Part shown: in pieces, positions 3,263-26,975 of the stretch
Numbering within the stretch: the first letter of the stretch is position 1
How the letters are laid out: the number at the start of each line of letters is the position of its first letter
Source: a virus
Reading direction: 5' to 3' (one strand)
DNA: 27,058 nt
Virus record (IMG/VR): IMGVR_UViG_3300017713_000065
Span: 1 to 27,058 of that record
The notes under the pieces: model-generated
The model's database searches: none
What the model was told of the DNA's origin: nothing
What the model saw: the letters and a program-made list of their open reading frames with translations, nothing else
Translations under genes and position numbers: made by a program

Positions 3263-5974
3263 ATGGCCGTTAGTTTACGAAATAGCGGATATGAGCGATT
3301 TGATCGCGATTACGCTGAAAAATTAAAATCGGATTATCCCGATATTTGGGCGGCGGGCGGAAACATCCGCGGGAATGATGCCTATAAATTATGGGGCCGG
3401 GCGTTGGAAGGTGACGACGCGCCGGCGGTGTTGGATTGGATTCGTGAACGTGAAGCATGGAGCGCCCGACATTTTAGAGATGGCGCACACCTAACCGACG
3501 AAGCTCCGAACGTTTCAAACGTTGCGGGGTTGGTTGCTCAAATAAAATGGGGAACCGTTGGCGTTTTGGGAATGGCGAAAATGAAAAGCGTTATTAACGA
3601 ATTGAAGGCGAAGATTGACGACAAGGCCCGCGCATGGGATGACGATTTAAGTGAAGCGATTGCCGAAGGTATTCGTAATAAGGTTGACGAATACAACGAG
3701 GACGAAGATAGAAAGACACACCGCGCAACGTTGCCGATGTTGGCCGAAGTTTTTAAACGTGGAATTGGTGCATATAAAACGAACCCGGAAAGCGTTAGAC
3801 CGACGGTAAACAGTCCGGAACAGTGGGCGTATGCACGAATAAATAGTTTTTTATATGCTATGAAAAATGAAAAATTTAGAAGCGGAAAGCACGACACGGA
3901 TTTATTTCCGGAAGGCCATCCGCTGAGAAGTAAAGACGAAGACGAACGCGCCCAGGTTGGAATGGTTGACGGCGAACCGGTATTTAGCACGAAGGCCGAA
4001 GCCGAAGCACACGCTGAAAAAATCGGGTGTGTTGGAAGTCACACCCACGAATTGAACGGGGAGACGGTTTACATGGCTTGTGAAAATCATAACGTTGCAA
4101 CCGGGAGCGGTTACGGTAAAAACTTGGAAAGTATGGAAAATAAAAAAATTGAAACACGCGAAGCGGCCCCGGTTGTTTCAAGTGTGAACGAAGAAAATAG
4201 AACGGTCGAGGTTACATTTGGAACTACGTACCCGGTTCAGCGTTTTGATGGTCAGAATAACACGTATTTTAATGAGGTGTTAAGTTTTTCGCCGGATCAT
4301 GTTAGAATGGAGCGAATGACAAACGGAACGGCCCCGGTTTTGAATAACCACATGAACACCGGGACGGATGGCGTTCTTGGAAAAGTTGAGGCGGCACGAT
4401 TAGAGGACGGCCACGGCGTTGCGGTTTTGAGATTTGCGAAAACCCCGGACGTAGATAATACTTGGATGAAAGTACGCGACGGTATTATTTCGGGCGTTTC
4501 GGTTGGGTATCGTGTTCACGAGTACACAATAACAGACCGTTCCGGCGATACACCGACGTACATGGCCACGAGTTGGGAACCGTTGGAAGTTAGTATTGCA
4601 CCGGTGCCGGCTGATCCGCGTAGTTCAGTAAGGAGCGCCACGACCGACGTTGAAATTTTAGGAAATGAAACAATTATTGAAGAAAATAAAGACATGGTTG
4701 CGCGCGACGCGGAACCGATTACTAAATCTAATAAAGCGAATAAAATGAATCTGAATGATTTGAAAGCGTCGCGTAAAGCGATGGAAAACGAATTGAACGA
4801 TTTGAACGTTTTGACCGAAATGGACGACGTGCAAAAAGTGAGATTTGAAGAACTAGTCGGTAAAATCGACGAAACAAGTAAAAGCATCGAATTGAAAGAA
4901 AAAGCCGAAGCGATGTTGAAAGCGCGCGCGGTTGCGGGTGCGGCGTCAAAGAGCGAAGAAAACGAAATTTCAGAAATGAAAAAAGGGTTTTCTATTACTG
5001 AAAGCGTTCGTGATTTGATGGATGGTAAAGGTTTGAACGGTGTAGCTTCTGAAATGAAGCAAGAGGCCGCAAGACAAGGACACCACGGCCAAGGGATTGT
5101 TATCCCGGCATCGTTCCAACGTACCGGAGCAGAAGATAATTTTCAAACAACGGGCGAAGGCGCCGGATTTGTTGCTACGGAAGTAGGGGCGTTTATCGAA
5201 GGATTGACTGCACCGCTAGAAGTTGAAGCATGGGGTACACAAGTTCTTAGAGGTTTGACCGGAAACGTTCAGTTCCCAAGAGAACACGACAAAGCGACGG
5301 CAACGGCTGAAGGCGAAGTGGATGATGATGCGGCTTCAGGTATGAACTTGGATGAGTTAACACTTTCTCCGAAGCGTTACGCTAATACCACGAAGTTTTC
5401 AAAACAGTTAATGTACCAAGCAACGGGCGACGTTGAAAACATTATCGCTAACGCGTTGAGAAGAGGACACGAAAGAAAGGTTCTTTCTGACATCTTCACG
5501 GGCGGAACGGGAATAACCGGAATCACGGGAATCACCGGAGTTAATGACATCGCGGCGGCTGATACGGCTGATTATGCGGCAATCATTGCGGCACTAGAAT
5601 CGGCGGTATTAGAAGATTCAGGCTTAACGCCTAACGCGCGTTTTGTACTTTCGCCATCGGCTTACGAGTACATTTCTAAAGCGGTTAACGTTGCGGGTGT
5701 TAGTGCATTGATCGATAACATGAATAACACGATCAGAGGATATAACTATCACAAAACGCCATACTTGGCGGATGCGTCTTCAAACGTTGGTCAAGCGGTA
5801 TTTGGTGATTGGTCAAACGCTATTTTATGTTACTTCGGGGCCATAGACATTGTTGTCGATCCATTTAGCAGTAAGAATCACGCACAAGTTGAGATAACAA
5901 TGAATCAATTTATTGATTTCAATCTTACACAACCGGCGGCGTTTGCATTCGAGAACGGAATTACGGCATCGTAA
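3263..5974 (+). CDS. Fused prohead protease-scaffold-major capsid protein
   Basis: 903 aa from this start (916 aa from 3224). Several parts are visible. Residues 1-220 are a helical domain ending in WAYARINSFLYA (188-199). A Cys/His cluster C256-x3-H260-x-H262...C273-x2-H276 looks like a small zinc site. Residues about 310-460 form an HK97-type S78 prohead protease with H363 (LNNHMN) and S413 (GVSVGY). Residues about 495-560 are a charged helical stretch like a scaffolding delta domain. Residues about 578-903 form an HK97-fold capsid protein. The protease would normally release the mature capsid by cutting near residue 560-620. A GITGITGITG run lies at 750-759. Protease-capsid fusions are known; the extra N-terminal domain and metal cluster in one chain are less usual. 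A terminator follows. Confidence 0.93.
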   Translation: MAVSLRNSGYERFDRDYAEKLKSDYPDIWAAGGNIRGNDAYKLWGRALEGDDAPAVLDWIREREAWSARHFRDGAHLTDEAPNVSNVAGLVAQIKWGTVGVLGMAKMKSVINELKAKIDDKARAWDDDLSEAIAEGIRNKVDEYNEDEDRKTHRATLPMLAEVFKRGIGAYKTNPESVRPTVNSPEQWAYARINSFLYAMKNEKFRSGKHDTDLFPEGHPLRSKDEDERAQVGMVDGEPVFSTKAEAEAHAEKIGCVGSHTHELNGETVYMACENHNVATGSGYGKNLESMENKKIETREAAPVVSSVNEENRTVEVTFGTTYPVQRFDGQNNTYFNEVLSFSPDHVRMERMTNGTAPVLNNHMNTGTDGVLGKVEAARLEDGHGVAVLRFAKTPDVDNTWMKVRDGIISGVSVGYRVHEYTITDRSGDTPTYMATSWEPLEVSIAPVPADPRSSVRSATTDVEILGNETIIEENKDMVARDAEPITKSNKANKMNLNDLKASRKAMENELNDLNVLTEMDDVQKVRFEELVGKIDETSKSIELKEKAEAMLKARAVAGAASKSEENEISEMKKGFSITESVRDLMDGKGLNGVASEMKQEAARQGHHGQGIVIPASFQRTGAEDNFQTTGEGAGFVATEVGAFIEGLTAPLEVEAWGTQVLRGLTGNVQFPREHDKATATAEGEVDDDAASGMNLDELTLSPKRYANTTKFSKQLMYQATGDVENIIANALRRGHERKVLSDIFTGGTGITGITGITGVNDIAAADTADYAAIIAALESAVLEDSGLTPNARFVLSPSAYEYISKAVNVAGVSALIDNMNNTIRGYNYHKTPYLADASSNVGQAVFGDWSNAILCYFGAIDIVVDPFSSKNHAQVEITMNQFIDFNLTQPAAFAFENGITAS

Positions 5975-6042: not shown

Positions 6043-6630
6043 ATGCGGGTAACATTTGAAAGAACAAGTTTAATGAGCGTAACGGGGACGAGCGTCTTAC
6101 CTTTGGCCGACGCGAAAACGTGGTTACGTGTTGATAGTGATGACGAAGATGCGTTGATAACCTCGTTGATTAACGTTTCAGTTGGAGCGGTTCAAAGTTA
6201 TATTGGCCGAGCAATGGTTACGATTACAGATTTTGAGTTTTATTTACCGGATTTTATTAATACGAATTTACCCGTTGGCCCGTTAACATCGATCAGAAGT
6301 ATAAAATATTTTGATCAAGGGAACGTTGAAAAAACTTTGGATTCGTCGCTATATTGGTTCGAGGCGGGAAGCCCGACACAACCGAAAATATTTTTTAAAC
6401 AACCTTTGCCGAGTGTTTATGATTACCGAGCGCAACCGGTAACAATAACTTGCAACGTTGGCGTTAAAGCGTCAGGCTTACCGCACGCGATTAAACACGC
6501 GGTTCGTTTATTGCTTTCTCAATATTACGATCAAAGGGAAAATTTCATTGTCGGAACCGTAGTAAGTAAGGAACTACCGAACGGAATTAAAGCATTGTTA
6601 TCACCGTACCGAAACGTTTATTTCGTATGA
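6043..6630 (+). CDS. Head-tail connector, gp6-like
   Basis: 195 aa. It resembles the phage gp6/phiE125 gp8 family of adaptor proteins that bind under the portal ring. The first 60 residues show the usual pattern: a leading LADAKTWLRVDSDDEDALI stretch (about residues 22-40), then a helix ending in AVQSYIGRAM. A predicted beta region follows, then a C-terminal helical LPHAIKHAVRLLLSQYYDQREN segment. It lies directly behind the capsid terminator and shares an ATGA overlap with the next connector gene, so the two are likely translated together. An internal ATG at 6073 is an alternative start and would still leave the conserved part intact. Confidence 0.88.
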   Translation: MRVTFERTSLMSVTGTSVLPLADAKTWLRVDSDDEDALITSLINVSVGAVQSYIGRAMVTITDFEFYLPDFINTNLPVGPLTSIRSIKYFDQGNVEKTLDSSLYWFEAGSPTQPKIFFKQPLPSVYDYRAQPVTITCNVGVKASGLPHAIKHAVRLLLSQYYDQRENFIVGTVVSKELPNGIKALLSPYRNVYFV

Positions 6631-11462: not shown

Positions 11463-14171
11463 ATGGGATTATTTTTATATAGCGAATTCCTTAATGATAG
11501 AAACGAACCGTTTCGAATCGAAATACACGACACCGATTTCAGCGGAACCGAAACAGAATTCCACGTCGGGGCGGATGGGTTCGTTTTGGAATACCAAGGC
11601 GACACGGAAAAACCATTTCAACCGATTGTCGGAAGTACGGTAACGATTGAATTACAAATCGAATCGGGTTCGCAAGGTTTAAACAATGCCACAACAATCG
11701 AGGGGTTTCTTGACGATCTATTAACGTCCGACGAAGATCGGTTTACGGTTGTTATTCGTGACGAACATAGTGCAACGGGCGGCGTTTTTTGGGTTGGAAT
11801 ATTACAACCGGAGCAAATCAATACGGCCGACGAAAGTTTCCCGCGCCGGATTGAGTTAACCGCGTCTGACGATCTAGCGAACTTGAAAGGAATCGACTAT
11901 AATAACGACGGTTCAGCGTACACCGGAACCGACACGATTCTAACGTACGTGTTGAACTGTTTAGGTAAAACACGAACAACGCAACATTGGGGCGCGTCGG
12001 TTAAATACTTGGTAAACAATACCTACATTCTAGGCCAAGAAACAACCGGAGGGACGCCAATAGAAAACTATAAACTATTAAACGAAGATTTTTATACCAC
12101 CGAAAGCGGGATAATAGAATATATCAGCGCTTACGAAATGTTAAAGCAAATTTGCGAATCGTTCATGTTTTCGATTTACCAAGCCCGCGGCGTTTGGGTA
12201 ATGGTTCCGAGAATGTACGTAACTCTAACCGGTACTTATTCGGCGAAATATTTCGACAAGTCCGGGGCGGTTGTCGCCGGTTCGGGTGCATATAATACGG
12301 TTAAATTAATCGATCAAACGCCGTCGAGTAGGGTACAACGTTTAACCGGCGGCGAATACGGACACCTGAACGCGTATAAGTCGGTTCGGAGAAACTACAC
12401 GTTTAACGGGAATATTCCGTTAATAAACGAGGATTTAGTCACGGCGGATTTAAACAGTACGACGTTTCAAAATTCGGTTTTTATTTTACCGTCGGGCGGT
12501 GAATTAGTTTGTCAGTTACAGTTAAATTTAACATTAGACGCGGACGCAACCGTTACGGGTGAAGAACGGGCAATTCGTTTTTTAGTCGAATTAGAGATAA
12601 ACGCCGGGGCGTATTACCTAAACCGTCCGGCCGCGTTAGTTGGCGGCGATTCGGTTTTCATATTGTCCGACGATGATTTAATCGACGTTTTTACGTTTCA
12701 ACTAGGCGCGGCGGAATGGAACACAACGGCATCGAACCGGCTCCAATGGTTCACCCCGGCGTTAGATTATGAAGCCGGCGATAATTCGCCGACAATGTTC
12801 GGGTTTAATATTCCCGGAATACCGGCCGACGCGACCGGATTAAGTGTGAAGGTTCACCTAACACCGTACAAAGCTGACGGAACTACGGCCGGGGCGTTTA
12901 CAACCGCGGTGTTAAATGACACAACGTTGAATTTTGGAAGCGTTAATTTTTTCGCCGGTGACGATGTGGCGTATAGCGGTGACGAAATAATTTATTCAGC
13001 GACGGCCGACAATAAGGCCCGCGACATTTTAGAGTTAGACGATGGAATTATAGGGGATCAAATTTCAACAACGGCAACACGCGGGGCAATACGTGGAAAC
13101 GATGACACCTATACCGCGGCGGATGAGTGGAGTACGATAAGCGCCCCAACGGATTACGATTTAATTTTGAGAACGTTAGTAAGTGAACATTTGGCATATC
13201 ATAACGTTCCGCGGGAGGTGTTGCGGTTTACGTTGTATGACGATGTTTTGTATTTCGACGATGTTTTTCAATTTGATTCGCGCCGTTTTGCGGTTATGAA
13301 CATGCGATTTACTGCGAACCTGGGCGAATACGAAACGGAGTTGATTGAAATGTCGCGGGATGGCTCCGGGATAACGGCCGCAACCGGCCCGAAAAAACCG
13401 ATTCGAAACCCGAAGGTAATAATTGATAAACCGCAAGAGGTTGAAACTTTAATGGGGTTGGGATCGGTTAACAAACGTGTAACGCTAAAACTTGGTTTAG
13501 ATTACGAAACGAATCCAAAAACTAAATTTAACAGTAAAAGCGCCGCAAGCGGTAAAGCCACGGATTTCGGCACGTTGTTACGTTCGGCCGATAATATGAC
13601 CGGTAAGGTTGAATTTGTTTTGCCGGAGGCCGACGGTAGTAACGGCGACGTATTAACAACGAACGGAAGCGGCGTAATGTCGTTCACGACACCGAGCGGC
13701 GGCGGTGGGGTTACTGCGCAAAATTTCCCGTTAAGTTTTGAAACGCAATTAACTAGCGGTGATTATTTTTTCGGAAACCTTAGATATGGGTGGAATTATG
13801 TCGTATGGAATCGAAGCGACAACAATATGCAGTTGGGATACTTTGAACTTGTGTCGGCGATGGTCGCTACGGATGACTACACGAGTATAAGCGTGAAGGG
13901 TATCGCCGGGAGTATGAGAACCACTAATTCTGTAACCATTGAATTTTCACTTTGGAAAGGGACGAATTCCGGAGGTACGGGGACATTTTCAACCACGGAG
14001 CAAGGTTCAACGACCGTAGACTATGACACAAACGACGAAATGAAACCGCTAGATTTTAGCGCGACGGGATTAACAATAAATGATGGGGATTACATTTTTT
14101 TCGCAGTTAGAAACCCATCCTATTCAGTAAGGGAGGACGTCGCGTGTTCCATTACGATCACATTTAGTTAA
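11463..14171 (+). CDS. Tail-tip hub / receptor-binding protein
   Basis: 902 aa, right after the tape measure where distal-tail and baseplate genes lie. The first 165 residues (FRIEIHDTDFSG..., EYQGDTEKPFQPIVGS, then VFWVGILQPEQ) match a type common as the single large tail protein in Bacteroidota phages. Residues about 165-640 are beta-rich. A glycine-rich GSNGDVLTTNGSGVMSFTTP stretch (about 723-742), like tail-fibre shaft repeats, leads to a C-terminal beta domain (about 750-902) that I infer to be the receptor-binding head. No further fibre gene follows, so one protein may serve as distal tail, hub and adhesin. Function of the parts is inferred; being a tail protein is safe. Confidence 0.8.
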   Translation: MGLFLYSEFLNDRNEPFRIEIHDTDFSGTETEFHVGADGFVLEYQGDTEKPFQPIVGSTVTIELQIESGSQGLNNATTIEGFLDDLLTSDEDRFTVVIRDEHSATGGVFWVGILQPEQINTADESFPRRIELTASDDLANLKGIDYNNDGSAYTGTDTILTYVLNCLGKTRTTQHWGASVKYLVNNTYILGQETTGGTPIENYKLLNEDFYTTESGIIEYISAYEMLKQICESFMFSIYQARGVWVMVPRMYVTLTGTYSAKYFDKSGAVVAGSGAYNTVKLIDQTPSSRVQRLTGGEYGHLNAYKSVRRNYTFNGNIPLINEDLVTADLNSTTFQNSVFILPSGGELVCQLQLNLTLDADATVTGEERAIRFLVELEINAGAYYLNRPAALVGGDSVFILSDDDLIDVFTFQLGAAEWNTTASNRLQWFTPALDYEAGDNSPTMFGFNIPGIPADATGLSVKVHLTPYKADGTTAGAFTTAVLNDTTLNFGSVNFFAGDDVAYSGDEIIYSATADNKARDILELDDGIIGDQISTTATRGAIRGNDDTYTAADEWSTISAPTDYDLILRTLVSEHLAYHNVPREVLRFTLYDDVLYFDDVFQFDSRRFAVMNMRFTANLGEYETELIEMSRDGSGITAATGPKKPIRNPKVIIDKPQEVETLMGLGSVNKRVTLKLGLDYETNPKTKFNSKSAASGKATDFGTLLRSADNMTGKVEFVLPEADGSNGDVLTTNGSGVMSFTTPSGGGGVTAQNFPLSFETQLTSGDYFFGNLRYGWNYVVWNRSDNNMQLGYFELVSAMVATDDYTSISVKGIAGSMRTTNSVTIEFSLWKGTNSGGTGTFSTTEQGSTTVDYDTNDEMKPLDFSATGLTINDGDYIFFAVRNPSYSVREDVACSITITFS

Positions 14172-17097: not shown

Positions 17098-17258
17098 TTA
17101 AAAATTTATTCAAAAGAAGTCATGTTTTCGTGTGTGCCACGGCAACCGGTGAAATTTTATTCGCGTGTTATAACCGCCGCAAGGTTCGCAAATTCGAGCA
17201 ACGGTATTATCTAAAAACCGGGCGCCGGTGTTTAGTTACGAAAACTAAAATTTTCTAA
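17094..17258 (+). CDS. Small basic protein, unknown
   Basis: 54 aa from the ATG at 17094, which overlaps the nuclease stop as ATGA. An ATG at 17055 or TTG at 17037 would lengthen it inside the nuclease gene and is less likely. Very basic (MIKNLFKRSHVF; NRRKVRKFEQRYYLKTGRRC) with two or three Cys. Probably a nucleic-acid-binding small protein; family not recognised. Confidence 0.6.
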   Translation: MIKNLFKRSHVFVCATATGEILFACYNRRKVRKFEQRYYLKTGRRCLVTKTKIF

Positions 17259-17641
17259 TGATGGCCAAAATAAACCCCTACGTTTTCCCCGGTCTTCATC
17301 CGATAGACCGTAAAATAATCGGAACCCTGGACGATGAGACAATCGAATTGGTGAACCAAACAATGATCGAAACCGCGAAGGCGTTCGGCATCAGCGTCAC
17401 AGAATTAAAGAGTAAAAAACGAAGCCAACCGATACCGACGGCGAAACGTGTTTACATTAATTTGTTGCATCTGAATTTAAGCATTCATCAAAATACGATA
17501 GCGCGAACGCTCGACATGGATCGCACTAGCATTTTACACCATATTAAAAACCATTGGAATGATATGCGGTTTTACCCACTATATCAGAAAGGCTACAATA
17601 AGGCGTTAAAAGAAATATTCATGGATCATGAAACTACGTAA
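17258..17641 (+). CDS. DnaA domain IV-type DNA-binding protein
   Basis: 127 aa. Residues about 40-105 match the C-terminal DNA-binding domain of the initiator DnaA. An FGISVTELKSKKRSQPI helix is followed by TAKRVYINLL, a HTH of LSIHQNTIARTLDMDRTSIL, and HHIKNHW. 'DMDRTSILHH' (86-95) takes the place of the DnaA signature 'RDHTTVLHA'. The AAA+ ATPase domain is absent, so it can recognise DNA but not form the ATP-driven helix. Could mark a phage origin, compete with host DnaA, or regulate transcription. Two adjacent ATGs are at 17258 and 17261. It overlaps the helicase start by 14 nt. Confidence 0.85.
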   Translation: MMAKINPYVFPGLHPIDRKIIGTLDDETIELVNQTMIETAKAFGISVTELKSKKRSQPIPTAKRVYINLLHLNLSIHQNTIARTLDMDRTSILHHIKNHWNDMRFYPLYQKGYNKALKEIFMDHETT

Positions 17642-19667: not shown

Positions 19668-19976
19668 ATGAAATTCAAACTATTTTATACGCCGTTAGAT
19701 TCGAGCATTCAAATAAAACATTTCGACGAACACGAAGAAATGTTAACTTTTATTCATCATCAAGGTTTAAAAATTAATGAACCGTGCGGATGGTTATTAT
19801 TTCGAGCCGATCTAACTGACGTTTTTATTTCAGAAAGTAACGCAAGTGTTCAAGATTTTTTACGAAATAAATACCTTTGGCAACACCCGGCCGTATATTA
19901 TTTAATGCAATACGAAGGCACGGAAAACCCTTACGAACTCGCATTTAATAACATCCAAGACAACACGAGCGAATGA
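19668..19976 (+). CDS. Early protein of unknown function
   Basis: 102 aa from the ATG at 19668. An in-frame TTG at 19623 would add 15 Lys/Asn-rich residues that are really the A/C-rich leader, so it is rejected. Sequence MKFKLFYTPLDSSIQIKHF, then HEEMLTFIHHQGLKI and CGWLLFRADLTDVFI, suggests a mixed alpha/beta fold. Its stop overlaps the primase start as ATGA, so it is translated together with it. No family recognised. Confidence 0.7.
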   Translation: MKFKLFYTPLDSSIQIKHFDEHEEMLTFIHHQGLKINEPCGWLLFRADLTDVFISESNASVQDFLRNKYLWQHPAVYYLMQYEGTENPYELAFNNIQDNTSE

Positions 19977-22354
19977 ACGATTTACAAAACCTGAAACAAA
20001 CCGTTAACATCGTCGACGTTATCGGCCATTTCATAACGTTAAAACCTAGCGGATCTGAATTTGTTGGCCTTTGTCCGTTTCACGACGACACGCGGCCGTC
20101 AATGACCGTCGTACCGTCTAAGCAAATTTATTGGTGTCCGGTATGCGGCGCAACGGGTGACGCGTTCGATTTCGTTATGGAATACAAAAACGTAAAACTA
20201 TCCGAGGCCATACAAATTGTTCGGGATATTACCGGAAACATCGACACAACACCAACACCGAAACCCCGTAAAAAATCGAAACGATTAACGCCGGATAAAA
20301 ACGCGACGACACCGCCGCCGATTCCGGAGGGTTCCACGGTTTACAAATATTCGGAAACGGTTTACGTGACACGATCCAAAGACAAAAAAATAAGGCCGTT
20401 AACATTCAGCGGCGGGAAATGGCATCATAAAGCACCGGACAAACCGCCGTTGTATATCAAAGGCAACGGCCCGGCGATACTTGTCGAAGGTGAAAAAACG
20501 GCCGACGCGGTCGCCGCGTTAGGTTATCAAGCCGTCACGTGGATGGGCGGAACGAACCGATGGCAAAAAACGGATTTTTCCGGGTTACCGGCGAACGTTA
20601 TGTTTTGGCCCGATAACGATGAACCCGGCCGCAAATGCATGGAGGCCATTGCCACGAAATACGAAATGAATCCGGCATGGATTCCCGCACCCGAAAACGC
20701 TCCGAAAGGTTGGGACGCGGCCGATGGAAATACCGACGGATTAATTCAGCAAGCACAAAAACAAAAACGCAAACCGGCACAAAATTACACGGCCTTGGGA
20801 TTCTCAAAGAGGGCGATGCAGTTAACATACTTTTTCTACATTCACGATAAAAACCAAGTGACATGCTACACGAACAATCAAATAAACAAAACAACGCTCC
20901 GGGAATTACACCCGGAAATGGAACATTGGGGGAAAGACCACGACGAAGCCGCCGCAGAATTAATACACTTGTGTACACAACGCGGGTTATTCGATCCCGA
21001 TATGATACGGAACCGGGGGGCGTGGTTGGACGATAACCGCGTTATATTACACACCGGAAAAAAATTAATCGTAGACGGCACGCCGCACGAAATCGAAGAA
21101 TTAAAAACGGCATACATTTACGAGCGCCGGAAAACAATACCTTTTAATTTATCGAAACCTATAACCGCGGATCAAGGACAATTATTTGTTGATGCGCTGA
21201 GGTTGTATAATTGGGAACGAACCGTTAACGCGGAATTATTGGCCGGTTGGTGTTTCGTGGCTCCGATTTGTGGCGCGCTGAATTGGCGGCCCCATATTTG
21301 GGTAAGTGGTTCGTCCGGCGTAGGTAAAACGAAACTAATGAAAGATACGGTTTGGGCTTTATTAGACGACATCGCAATAACTCCGGAAGGCGAAAGCACC
21401 GAGGCGGGAATACGTCAAACGCTCGACGGCGAAGCGTTGCCGGTTTTATTCGATGAAGTCGAAGCCGATACACAACAAGCCCAGGCACGAATGGATGGAA
21501 TCCTTAACCTAATGCGTTCAGCAAGTTCGGGAAAATCCGGGCAAATAATGAAAGGCGGGGCAACGCATCAAGCGAAATCGTTCCGGATTCGTTCGTGTTT
21601 CGCGTTTAGTTCAATCGTTTACCAAGCCACAAAGAAAGCCGATCGTTCACGAATTACTGTTTTGGGTTTAGTACGTAACGCCGACACCGAGCAACAACGA
21701 AACGCATGGGATGAATATAACCAAACAATTCACGAACTAATTAACGCCGATTTTATTACCGGGTTCCGATCGCGAAGCGTTAAATATTTACGCGAAACAT
21801 TAGAGGCCGCGAAGGTATTTTGTGAAGTGATGGGCGTGGTATTGTCCGACCGTCGTTTAGGCGATCAAATCGGCACAATGATAGCCGGGTGTTGGATGTT
21901 AGAAAACGATTACACGCCGACGAAATCCGAGGCAGAAAGCTACGTTTCAAGCCGTAATTTTTACGACGATGATAACGATGAAATGGAGGATGAACTACAA
22001 TTATTACGGTTCATTATGCAACAAGGCGTGAACATCGACACGGATCGCAGTCGGTTCGATATGAACATCGGCGAGTTGATAAGCGAAGTAAACAACCGCG
22101 ACGCAATGAGCGACGATTTGCCAATCTTCAAGTCTAAGTTGGGGCGGATCGGGATGAAAGTAGAAAACAATAAATTAATCATTGCGAATTCAAATAGTAA
22201 CATTGCGCGAATGTTGGACGGTACGCAATGGGCAAAAAATCATCATAAAATTTTAAGACGCATCGAAGGCGCGAAGGCCGTCGGCGTTCAGCATTTTACA
22301 CAAGGGAACCGAAGCCGGGCCACGGCGATCCCGATTAAAACCGTACTTGGATGA
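19973..22354 (+). CDS. Primase-helicase: CHC2 zinc, Toprim and DUF927-type ATPase
   Basis: 793 aa. N-terminal CHC2-type zinc site with C34, H37, C55 and C58 (GLCPFHDD; YWCPVCGATG). A Toprim-like centre has E172 (VEGEK) and WPDNDEPG with D214/D216. The ATPase half around residues 430-560 has Walker A SGSSGVGKTK (444-453), Walker B VLFDEVEAD (491-499) and an Arg-rich segment, like DUF927/D5-type helicases. It would synthesise primers and unwind DNA at the phage fork. No DNA polymerase is encoded, so host polymerase is expected. Coupled by ATGA to genes on both sides. Confidence 0.93.
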   Translation: MNDLQNLKQTVNIVDVIGHFITLKPSGSEFVGLCPFHDDTRPSMTVVPSKQIYWCPVCGATGDAFDFVMEYKNVKLSEAIQIVRDITGNIDTTPTPKPRKKSKRLTPDKNATTPPPIPEGSTVYKYSETVYVTRSKDKKIRPLTFSGGKWHHKAPDKPPLYIKGNGPAILVEGEKTADAVAALGYQAVTWMGGTNRWQKTDFSGLPANVMFWPDNDEPGRKCMEAIATKYEMNPAWIPAPENAPKGWDAADGNTDGLIQQAQKQKRKPAQNYTALGFSKRAMQLTYFFYIHDKNQVTCYTNNQINKTTLRELHPEMEHWGKDHDEAAAELIHLCTQRGLFDPDMIRNRGAWLDDNRVILHTGKKLIVDGTPHEIEELKTAYIYERRKTIPFNLSKPITADQGQLFVDALRLYNWERTVNAELLAGWCFVAPICGALNWRPHIWVSGSSGVGKTKLMKDTVWALLDDIAITPEGESTEAGIRQTLDGEALPVLFDEVEADTQQAQARMDGILNLMRSASSGKSGQIMKGGATHQAKSFRIRSCFAFSSIVYQATKKADRSRITVLGLVRNADTEQQRNAWDEYNQTIHELINADFITGFRSRSVKYLRETLEAAKVFCEVMGVVLSDRRLGDQIGTMIAGCWMLENDYTPTKSEAESYVSSRNFYDDDNDEMEDELQLLRFIMQQGVNIDTDRSRFDMNIGELISEVNNRDAMSDDLPIFKSKLGRIGMKVENNKLIIANSNSNIARMLDGTQWAKNHHKILRRIEGAKAVGVQHFTQGNRSRATAIPIKTVLG

Positions 22355-25799: not shown

Positions 25800-25964
25800 T
25801 TAAATTAATTCGCGCCACGGCGTCGGAGTTTCGGAAAACGTCGACGCGAGGCGGTCAATTATTTCTTGGTTCATGCTTTTGCCGGATTCGGTTTTGGCCG
25901 ATTGTAATTGATCCCACAACGACGCGGGAATCATTACGTTTTTATTATGCTTCGGTTCGCTCAT
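25800..25964 (-). CDS. Arc-like ribbon-helix-helix regulator
   Basis: 54 aa on the minus strand, shorter than usual ORF thresholds. Residues 8-43 (KNVMIPASLWDQLQSAKTES, then GKSMNQEIIDRLASTF) match the Arc/MetJ-type ribbon-helix-helix pattern: a short strand with alternating residues, a helix, a Gly-x-Ser turn, and an 'N.EI..RL' helix. Such proteins bind DNA as dimers with the strand in the major groove. It is the second gene of a leftward pair, behind the 67-aa gene and before the 25714 terminator. Autoregulation through the palindrome at 26253-26267 is an inference. Confidence 0.78.
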   Translation of the reverse strand: MSEPKHNKNVMIPASLWDQLQSAKTESGKSMNQEIIDRLASTFSETPTPWRELI

Positions 25965-26006: not shown

Positions 26007-26210
26007 TTAGTATCCTCGTCTTAAAAGTTGTGCGATTCTTTTTGCAAATGATTTTTCATTTTTGTAGTAACGGTTATCATCTTCATCACCGTTATAAAAC
26101 GTAATCATGTGAATACCACCCCTTGAGATAGCATACCACCCCGCACAATCGTTGCTAAATGAAATAACACCTTTTTCGTTTCTTGTTTCTAGTATTTCTT
26201 GAATTTTCAT
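26007..26210 (-). CDS. Small protein of unknown function (minus strand)
   Basis: 67 aa, first gene of the leftward operon. It has an N-terminal helix (MKIQEILETRNEKG), a strand-rich centre (ISFSNDCAGWYAIS, HMITFYNGDEDD) and a basic C-terminal helix (KSFAKRIAQLLRRGY). A real promoter and A/C-rich leader lie upstream and an RHH gene follows, so it is a true gene. No family recognised; partner to the RHH protein in control is possible but unproven. AT-richer than the structural genes. Confidence 0.75.
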   Translation of the reverse strand: MKIQEILETRNEKGVISFSNDCAGWYAISRGGIHMITFYNGDEDDNRYYKNEKSFAKRIAQLLRRGY

Positions 26211-26269: not shown

Positions 26270-26461
26270 GCATAAACAAAAAAATATTACGCTTTCACGG
26301 AAAAATATTACGCTTTGTATCGTCTAGCGTAATATGTAACGCGCTGAAATACAACGGGTTGAAAAAAAATATTACGGTCTGAAAAAAAGCGTAATATTCC
26401 GGAAACCTGCGGCGCTCTAGGTTTTGCGGCATAATATATATAAAAATATTACGGTATATAA

Positions 26462-26512
26462 ATATATATATATAGGCGTATGCGTATGCGTGCGCGTGTG
26501 CGTGTGTGCGTG
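26462..26512. other. Alternating AT then 37-nt purine-pyrimidine tract
   Basis: An alternating AT run (26462-26474) is broken by GG, then bases 26476-26512 alternate purine and pyrimidine without exception (GC/GT/AT steps such as GCGTATGCGTATGCG). Such sequence favours Z-DNA or easy unwinding under negative supercoiling. It lies in the middle of the iteron-like cluster. Confidence 0.7.
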
Positions 26513-26557
26513 AGGGGCTATACTTTTTAGCGTAATATTGTAATACCGTAACTTAAT

Positions 26558-26622
26558 ACTGATTATCAGTTAGTTACGTGTTACGCTATGTAACACTTTT
26601 TGTTACATCGTTGATTATCAAC
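26558..26622. repeat. Two related 13-bp palindromes, 52 bp apart
   Basis: ACTGAT-T-ATCAGT (26558-26570) and GTTGAT-T-ATCAAC (26610-26622) are each perfect and share TGATTATCA. Their centres at 26564 and 26616 differ by 52 bp, close to five helical turns. Between them, GTGTTAC-gctat-GTAACAC (26578-26596) and GTAACA-ctttt-TGTTAC (26590-26606) form two mutually exclusive hairpins. The layout suggests protein-binding sites on one DNA face, just upstream of the HNH gene. Confidence 0.6.
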
Positions 26623-26645
26623 CATCTAAACGTAATATTTTATTA

Positions 26646-26975
26646 ATGGCATCAATACCCCGCAAAGGAAAACGGCATTCATGGCAACCGCCGAAAAGGA
26701 AACGAACCGGATCATTTAGCCGTGAAGTTGATAAGCGTTACAATTGTCAAAGGTGGCGAAGGTTCTCGAAAACTTATTTAGCACGGCATCCAATATGTAA
26801 GACCGAGGGTTGCGGAAAAATGAGCAAAGTAACCGATCACATCACGCCGGTGAGTCAAGGCGGTTCGTTTTGGGGCGGGCCGTTTCAAGCCCTTTGCCAT
26901 AGTTGCCATAATAGCAAGTCGTCAAAGGAACGAAACAATGTAAAAGGTAGTAACACCCCAAAGGGTTCGAGATAA
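26646..26975 (+). CDS. HNH endonuclease
   Basis: 109 aa, strongly basic N-terminus. HNH nuclease core: C51 and C56 (ICKTEGC), TDHITPVSQGG with H65 as catalytic general base, LCHSCHNSK with C84, C87 and H88. The two Cys pairs bind structural zinc, as usual. In HK97-like phages an HNH protein encoded next to terminase is needed for cos cleavage and packaging. This gene would be the direct neighbour of terS if the ends join, so that role is likely. Confidence 0.93.
   Translation: MASIPRKGKRHSWQPPKRKRTGSFSREVDKRYNCQRWRRFSKTYLARHPICKTEGCGKMSKVTDHITPVSQGGSFWGGPFQALCHSCHNSKSSKERNNVKGSNTPKGSR

Follow-up and report, generated by a model that had tools for sequence, protein, structure and literature searches.

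Origins of the lambda type (O protein) and of iteron plasmids (RepA) consist of iterons plus AT-rich DNA. The origin of known PICIs lies 3' of pri-rep and has a set of iterons on each side of an AT-rich region, and plasmid maintenance has been tested for EcCICFT073 (PMC6092414). Initiators of the SaPI type recognize their own iterons, and SaPI Rep does so with its C-terminal domain, while Cch2 uses its C-terminal domain to bind direct repeats that lie downstream of its own gene (PMC7581432). Here, we analyze an intergenic array of repeats in a tailed phage, represented by IMG/VR virus record IMGVR_UViG_3300017713_000065, positions 1 to 27,058, a stretch of 27,058 nucleotides that is called the window throughout. 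We conclude that positions 26283-26639 very probably are a replication origin of this phage, of the Pri-Rep-ori kind, for which the phage's own primase-helicase is the predicted initiator.

Two iteron arms around the least stable DNA of the record

The array occupies the interval between a minus-strand gene with its 5' end at 26210 and a plus-strand HNH endonuclease gene that begins at 26646. Seven exact copies of AATATTACG (26283+, 26304+, 26368+, 26390-, 26445+, 26531-, and 26631-) span 26283-26639, and a near copy with one mismatch is found on the minus strand at 26328-26336. Outside the array, the only exact copy in the whole window is at 6521 (shuffling expects 0.74), and the commonest non-simple 9-mer reached at most 3 copies across 2,000 dinucleotide shuffles of the intergenic region, compared to the 7 observed. 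The AATATTACG array is real and far beyond chance. The preliminary description had reported seven exact 9-mers and a near copy in about 360 bp, a single exact copy elsewhere, a 21-bp direct period for the first two copies, and a site beside divergent genes, and all of this agrees with our counts, shuffles, and coordinates.

The geometry that had been read from the repeats fared less well. Two inverted pairs had been described as identical, but that description contains a shift of register, and the pairs are spaced by 24 bp (26304/26328) and 22 bp (26368/26390), with 10-bp arms and an 11-nt loop in the one and 9-bp arms and a 13-nt loop in the other. A 13-nt loop is common to both pairs only if the first is read as the shifted word ATATTACGC/GCGTAATAT. 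The argument that a protein binds one face of the DNA was built partly on this error, and the spacings between successive RTTACR cores in the window are 21, 21, 7, 36, 19, 58, 83, 8, 8, 26, 7, 9, 13, and 29. Moreover, a change of sign in GC skew, which had been proposed as a check, was not seen at the array. Contigs elsewhere that share the inverted pair of 9-mers exactly had two to four copies per contig and no array.

The RTTACR core, which was picked after relatives had been seen, occurs 15 times in 435 bp, compared to a genome mean of 1.6 per such stretch, 6 in the next best stretch, and 3.8 +/- 1.8 (maximum, 12) in 2,000 local shuffles. The strength of the array comes from counting ATTACG and GTTACR together, as GTTAC alone is only mildly enriched in the window, with 6 copies, a number reached by 31 of 2,000 shuffles. 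The earlier reading covered part of the array, and the stretch at 26535-26608 in the right arm adds cores in the forms GTTACR and ATTACA. Six cores lie to the left of a central AT tract, one lies inside it, and eight lie to the right. The left arm (26283-26398) comprises AATATTACG at 26283+, 26304+, 26368+, and 26390-, the near copy at 26328-, and GTTACA at 26335-. The right arm (26531-26639) comprises ATTACG at 26531-, ATTACA at 26539-, GTTACG at 26547-, GTTACG at 26573+, GTTACG at 26580+, GTTACA at 26589-, GTTACA at 26602+, and ATTACG at 26631-.

No 40-bp stretch of the 27-kb record is less stable than the AT tract between the arms (26434-26473; 4.3 SD above the mean), a candidate unwinding element with an iteron embedded at 26445-26453 on the plus strand. 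Beside it is a 37-bp alternating purine-pyrimidine, or Z-prone, tract (26476-26512), the only such run of at least 14 in the window. The palindrome TGATTATCA occurs twice in the whole window, at 26560-26568 and 26612-26620, both within the array, and is a possible site for a host factor. Matches to sigma-70-type promoters in the region are at chance level, and no Rfam family was found there. Finally, the word AATATTAC, which we take to resemble the nick-site word of CRESS-DNA viruses, was set aside as a nick site of that type, as a rolling-circle Rep was not recognized.

An origin at this site could instead be initiated by host DnaA or by a small phage protein with a DnaA C-terminal domain of the DnaA-box-binding type (17258-17641, plus strand), with the primase-helicase recruited afterwards. 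The phage does encode such a domain, and the array does contain a DnaA-box-like word at 26615, but the match is degenerate and single (0.3 expected) rather than part of a cluster, and the iteron is unlike the DnaA box. Moreover, the domain was not found in 13 array-bearing records, which may be incomplete and so only weaken the case, or in G001, G002, G004, G005, and G007, and initiators of the SaPI type recognize iterons of their own (PMC7581432). Initiation through DnaA or its phage-encoded domain is, in our judgment, very unlikely. The preliminary description had named the DnaA-domain protein and an RHH protein as binders, and both are unlikely in that role, as neither Pfam family was found in the same 13 records, possibly fragments. 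The DnaA-domain gene adjoins a helicase gene, and the domain is present in G013 too.

Arrays in relatives and beside primase-helicase genes

The closest relative in which this region is sequenced, L286 (68% identity to the window in TerL, 63% in HNH, and 49% in TerS), has an equivalent array. Fourteen GTTACG/GTTACA sites, which are RTTACR cores, lie at 4863-5182, directly upstream of HNH, and form two arms on either side of the 40 bp of lowest stability in the locus. One iteron lies in the AT tract, next to which runs an alternating purine-pyrimidine tract (5000-5016), and the 14-mer GTTACGTGTTACGC is common to L286 and the right arm of the window. Relatives with the surrounding genes and without the repeats had been suggested as a refutation; L286 has both the genes and the repeats. 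The 19-kb record of L286 is without the primase, and the contigs of L019 and L020, the two closest primase relatives, stop short of the array region, and therefore no single close relative shows the primase together with an array of this motif. Another relative, L045 (56% identity in the tape-measure protein and 52% in TerL), also counted among the primase-helicase homologues, has a different word, CGACCAGAA, upstream of HNH. Relatives that have HNH and terminase, and from whose available sequence this primase is absent, had no array, and therefore the array is not linked to the packaging genes. Few relatives were recovered when HNH or TerL was the sole query.

The same comparison bears on packaging. 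The HNH gene (26646-26975, plus strand), which stands in the same order in L286, comes before the terS and terL genes with which the record opens, and the repeats might be cos or pac side sites for the small terminase subunit, next to HNH-terS-terL. The array is 0.4-0.8 kb from the end of the record, and the records of relatives start just upstream of terS (positions 1-89 in the window, 1-62 in G008 [L195], and 1-23 in L285), as cos ends would. Relatives in the packaging genes, however, have HNH and terminase without any array, and the array of most primase homologues adjoins the primase rather than the terminase. We consider it extremely unlikely that the array is a packaging signal. The record starts of the three related phages in themselves suggest physical (cos) ends between HNH and terS.

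Arrays accompany homologues of the primase-helicase. Seventy-five loci were drawn solely by homology to the primase-helicase, near-duplicates included, and 73 control loci were selected through a lysis-region phosphoesterase. At least six GTTAC sites per 340 bp were found at 38 of the 75 primase loci (6 to 14 sites), which do not amount to 38 independent cases because the set holds near-duplicates, and at 2 of the 73 controls, both partly in ORFs. At least five GTTAC sites within 170 bp of the least stable 40 bp were found at 35 of the 75 primase loci and none of the 73 controls, and an unbiased k-mer scan of noncoding DNA, with a threshold of -6, found arrays at 25 of the 75 and at no control. 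P4, a proven case, was positive at both ori and crr by the same method. No array was found by either criterion at 26 of the 75 primase loci, many of the contigs being partial. In the homologues, the array mostly starts at the stop codon of the primase gene (median position relative to the end of the primase match, -10 nt), and the AT minimum, which is the 40 bp of lowest stability at the locus, lies between the arms. The array of the window is 3.9 kb downstream of its primase gene, whereas it is adjacent to that gene in most homologues.

The layout is similar in homologues with other words, namely, GTAAAC (L044), TGTAGCAAA (L050), GTCCGCA (L043, about 60 bp past the primase stop), GTCAAC (L200, together with GTTAC), GTGTAAAC, and CCTAACC. 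Of 79 arrays, 29 contain the longest alternating tract of their locus (2.9 expected), and TGATWATCA, possibly the site of a host protein, occurs 9 times in the 79 arrays (0.71 expected); both enrichments were spotted first and tested afterwards. Other alternating tracts beside the AT tract are found in L044 (15913-15973) and L200 (5986-6042), and TGATWATCA is also found in L050, L057, L060, L062, L069, L221, and L236 despite their differing iterons.

Some arrays stand apart. Two related Catenovulum elements have two arrays each (12838-12962 and 13591-13715 in L036; 12844-12968 and 13572-13696 in L037), which follow a primase/helicase-like gene, with DUF927 in L036. The word is CTGGTGACA in one element and CTGGGGACA in the other, with the same base difference in the copies, as though the iterons had changed in concert. 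Large CHC2-Toprim primases of about 1,100-1,380 aa (L051-L062, L065-L067, L069, L097, and L098) have arrays of words such as TCCTACAA, TGCACACA, and GTCATACA at the end of the gene or within a few kilobases of it, and these probably are further origins of the same general kind. The array in L042, by contrast with an origin, is a coding repeat in a collagen-like gene, and those in L046 and L196 are coding repeats in alanine-rich or low-complexity genes and likewise not origins. The genes in L196 (9507-10031) and L046 (6401-6958) are similar, their GC-rich internal repeats code for alanine-rich or low-complexity tails, and the repeat appears to be frame-shifted between these relatives.

The tie to the primase-helicase also bears on whether the array is an operator, at which an Arc-like RHH protein (25800-25964, minus strand) or another regulator would bind the repeats and regulate both the genes to the left and the HNH-terminase operon. 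Arrays are frequent targets of RHH proteins, the Arc-like gene is two genes away, and the array sits between diverging genes, with a 67-aa gene of no assigned function (26007-26210, minus strand) on its left and the HNH start codon abutting the last AATATTACG copy on its right. The Arc family, however, was not found in the 13 array-bearing records, an absence that weakens the reading without doing more, given that the records may be incomplete. Moreover, the array tracks the primase-helicase family, past whose stop codon it lies in most homologues, HNH-terminase relatives with other replication genes are without arrays, and an operator would leave the central AT minimum unexplained. Thus, we consider an operator improbable, and the master operator of the preliminary description gained no positive support.

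The primase-helicase as predicted initiator

The candidate initiator of the origin is encoded at 19973-22354 on the plus strand and comprises a CHC2 zinc finger, a Toprim-like part, an AAA+ helicase, and a C-terminal domain. AlphaFold2 models of 13 primase-helicase homologues had a mean pLDDT of 80. Matches to the helicase part are SCCmec Cch (5dgk; Foldseek E, 1.6e-8) and the SaPI5 primase-helicase (7ola), and by fold match of the models it is predicted to be a helicase of the self-loading type (SaPI Rep/Cch/D5-like) fused to a primase. The C-terminal domain folded alone had a pLDDT of 90, and its best structural match, a weak one, was to residues 452-554 of SaPIbov1 Rep (8tch; Z, 5.2); Foldseek with the C-terminal domain alone returned nothing significant. 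Compared to L019, among the closest relatives, the helicase is 82% identical and the C-terminal part is 51% identical. Such divergence might reflect a specificity domain, and no simple correlation was seen between C-terminal identity and iteron type.

From these parts we infer how the origin may work. Subunits of the primase-helicase would bind the RTTACR iterons of both arms through the C-terminal domain and assemble as ring helicases on either side of the AT tract. The rings would then melt 26434-26473, possibly with help from the adjacent alternating purine-pyrimidine tract, such that the protein would load itself, and the fused DnaG-type primase part would prime both strands. A phage origin had been one of two proposals in the preliminary description, and it draws support from the relatives, the position, the AT tract, and the tie to a primase-helicase of the self-loading type.

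Comparison with known replicons

The initiators of lambda and of iteron plasmids differ from the predicted initiator here in that O and RepA are not helicases, and no initiator of the O or RepA type was recognized in the window. SCCmec Cch/Cch2 provides the best fold match of the window helicase (5dgk), but its putative origin has only three iterons, and the element is not a phage. P4 is alike in its fused primase-helicase initiator (alpha) and in its short iterons in both orientations, and it differs in the iteron (TGTTCACC at crr and ori versus RTTACR/AATATTACG) and in having two separate sites, compared to the one array found in the window. The crr site of P4 is 3' of alpha and ori is away from alpha, and thus an origin that adjoins the initiator gene is usual but not required for the wider kind.

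The PICIs and SaPIs (SaPIbov1, SaPI5, and EcCICFT073) compare on more points. PICIs are satellites without the full set of virion genes, whereas the window has terminase together with long ORFs of structural size in the customary head-tail order, the head and tail names being a reading of the sequence and of synteny with relatives. Thus, having its own terminase and structural genes, the window is not a satellite; it is a tailed phage that encodes its own capsid and tail. The PICI origin is directly 3' of the initiator gene, a layout found in most homologues, while 3.9 kb separate the two in the window. The primase part is of the DnaG type (CHC2/Toprim-like) in the window and archaeo-eukaryotic in SaPIs, and the window has a long alternating purine-pyrimidine tract beside the AT tract, which is a further difference. 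In the literature that was searched, from which subscription papers were mostly absent, we found no account of an origin of this kind in a tailed phage of the Bacteroidota type, which is weak evidence.

It is conceivable, if somewhat short of an even prospect, that tailed phages use, as a widespread class, a satellite-type Pri-Rep-ori replicon with a Z-prone tract next to the melting site and the palindrome TGATWATCA as additional conserved parts, that this organization, described as unique to PICIs, also belongs to autonomous phages, and that its iteron words diverge with a C-terminal domain that changes fast. Arrays in dozens of phage contigs that encode a related primase-helicase suggest that Pri-Rep-ori is common in tailed phages also. 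They offer a direct, sequence-based route to phage origins, a large natural set in which to study the joint change of initiator C-terminal domains and iterons, and a hint of exchange of replication modules between satellites and phages. The likeness to PICIs and SaPIs is one of both site and protein: two sets of short iterons surround an AT-rich stretch in the window and in L286, and the initiator helicase, which occurs with or fused to a primase, matches in the fold of the helicase, and its C-terminal domain may resemble that of SaPI Rep, the best match being weak.
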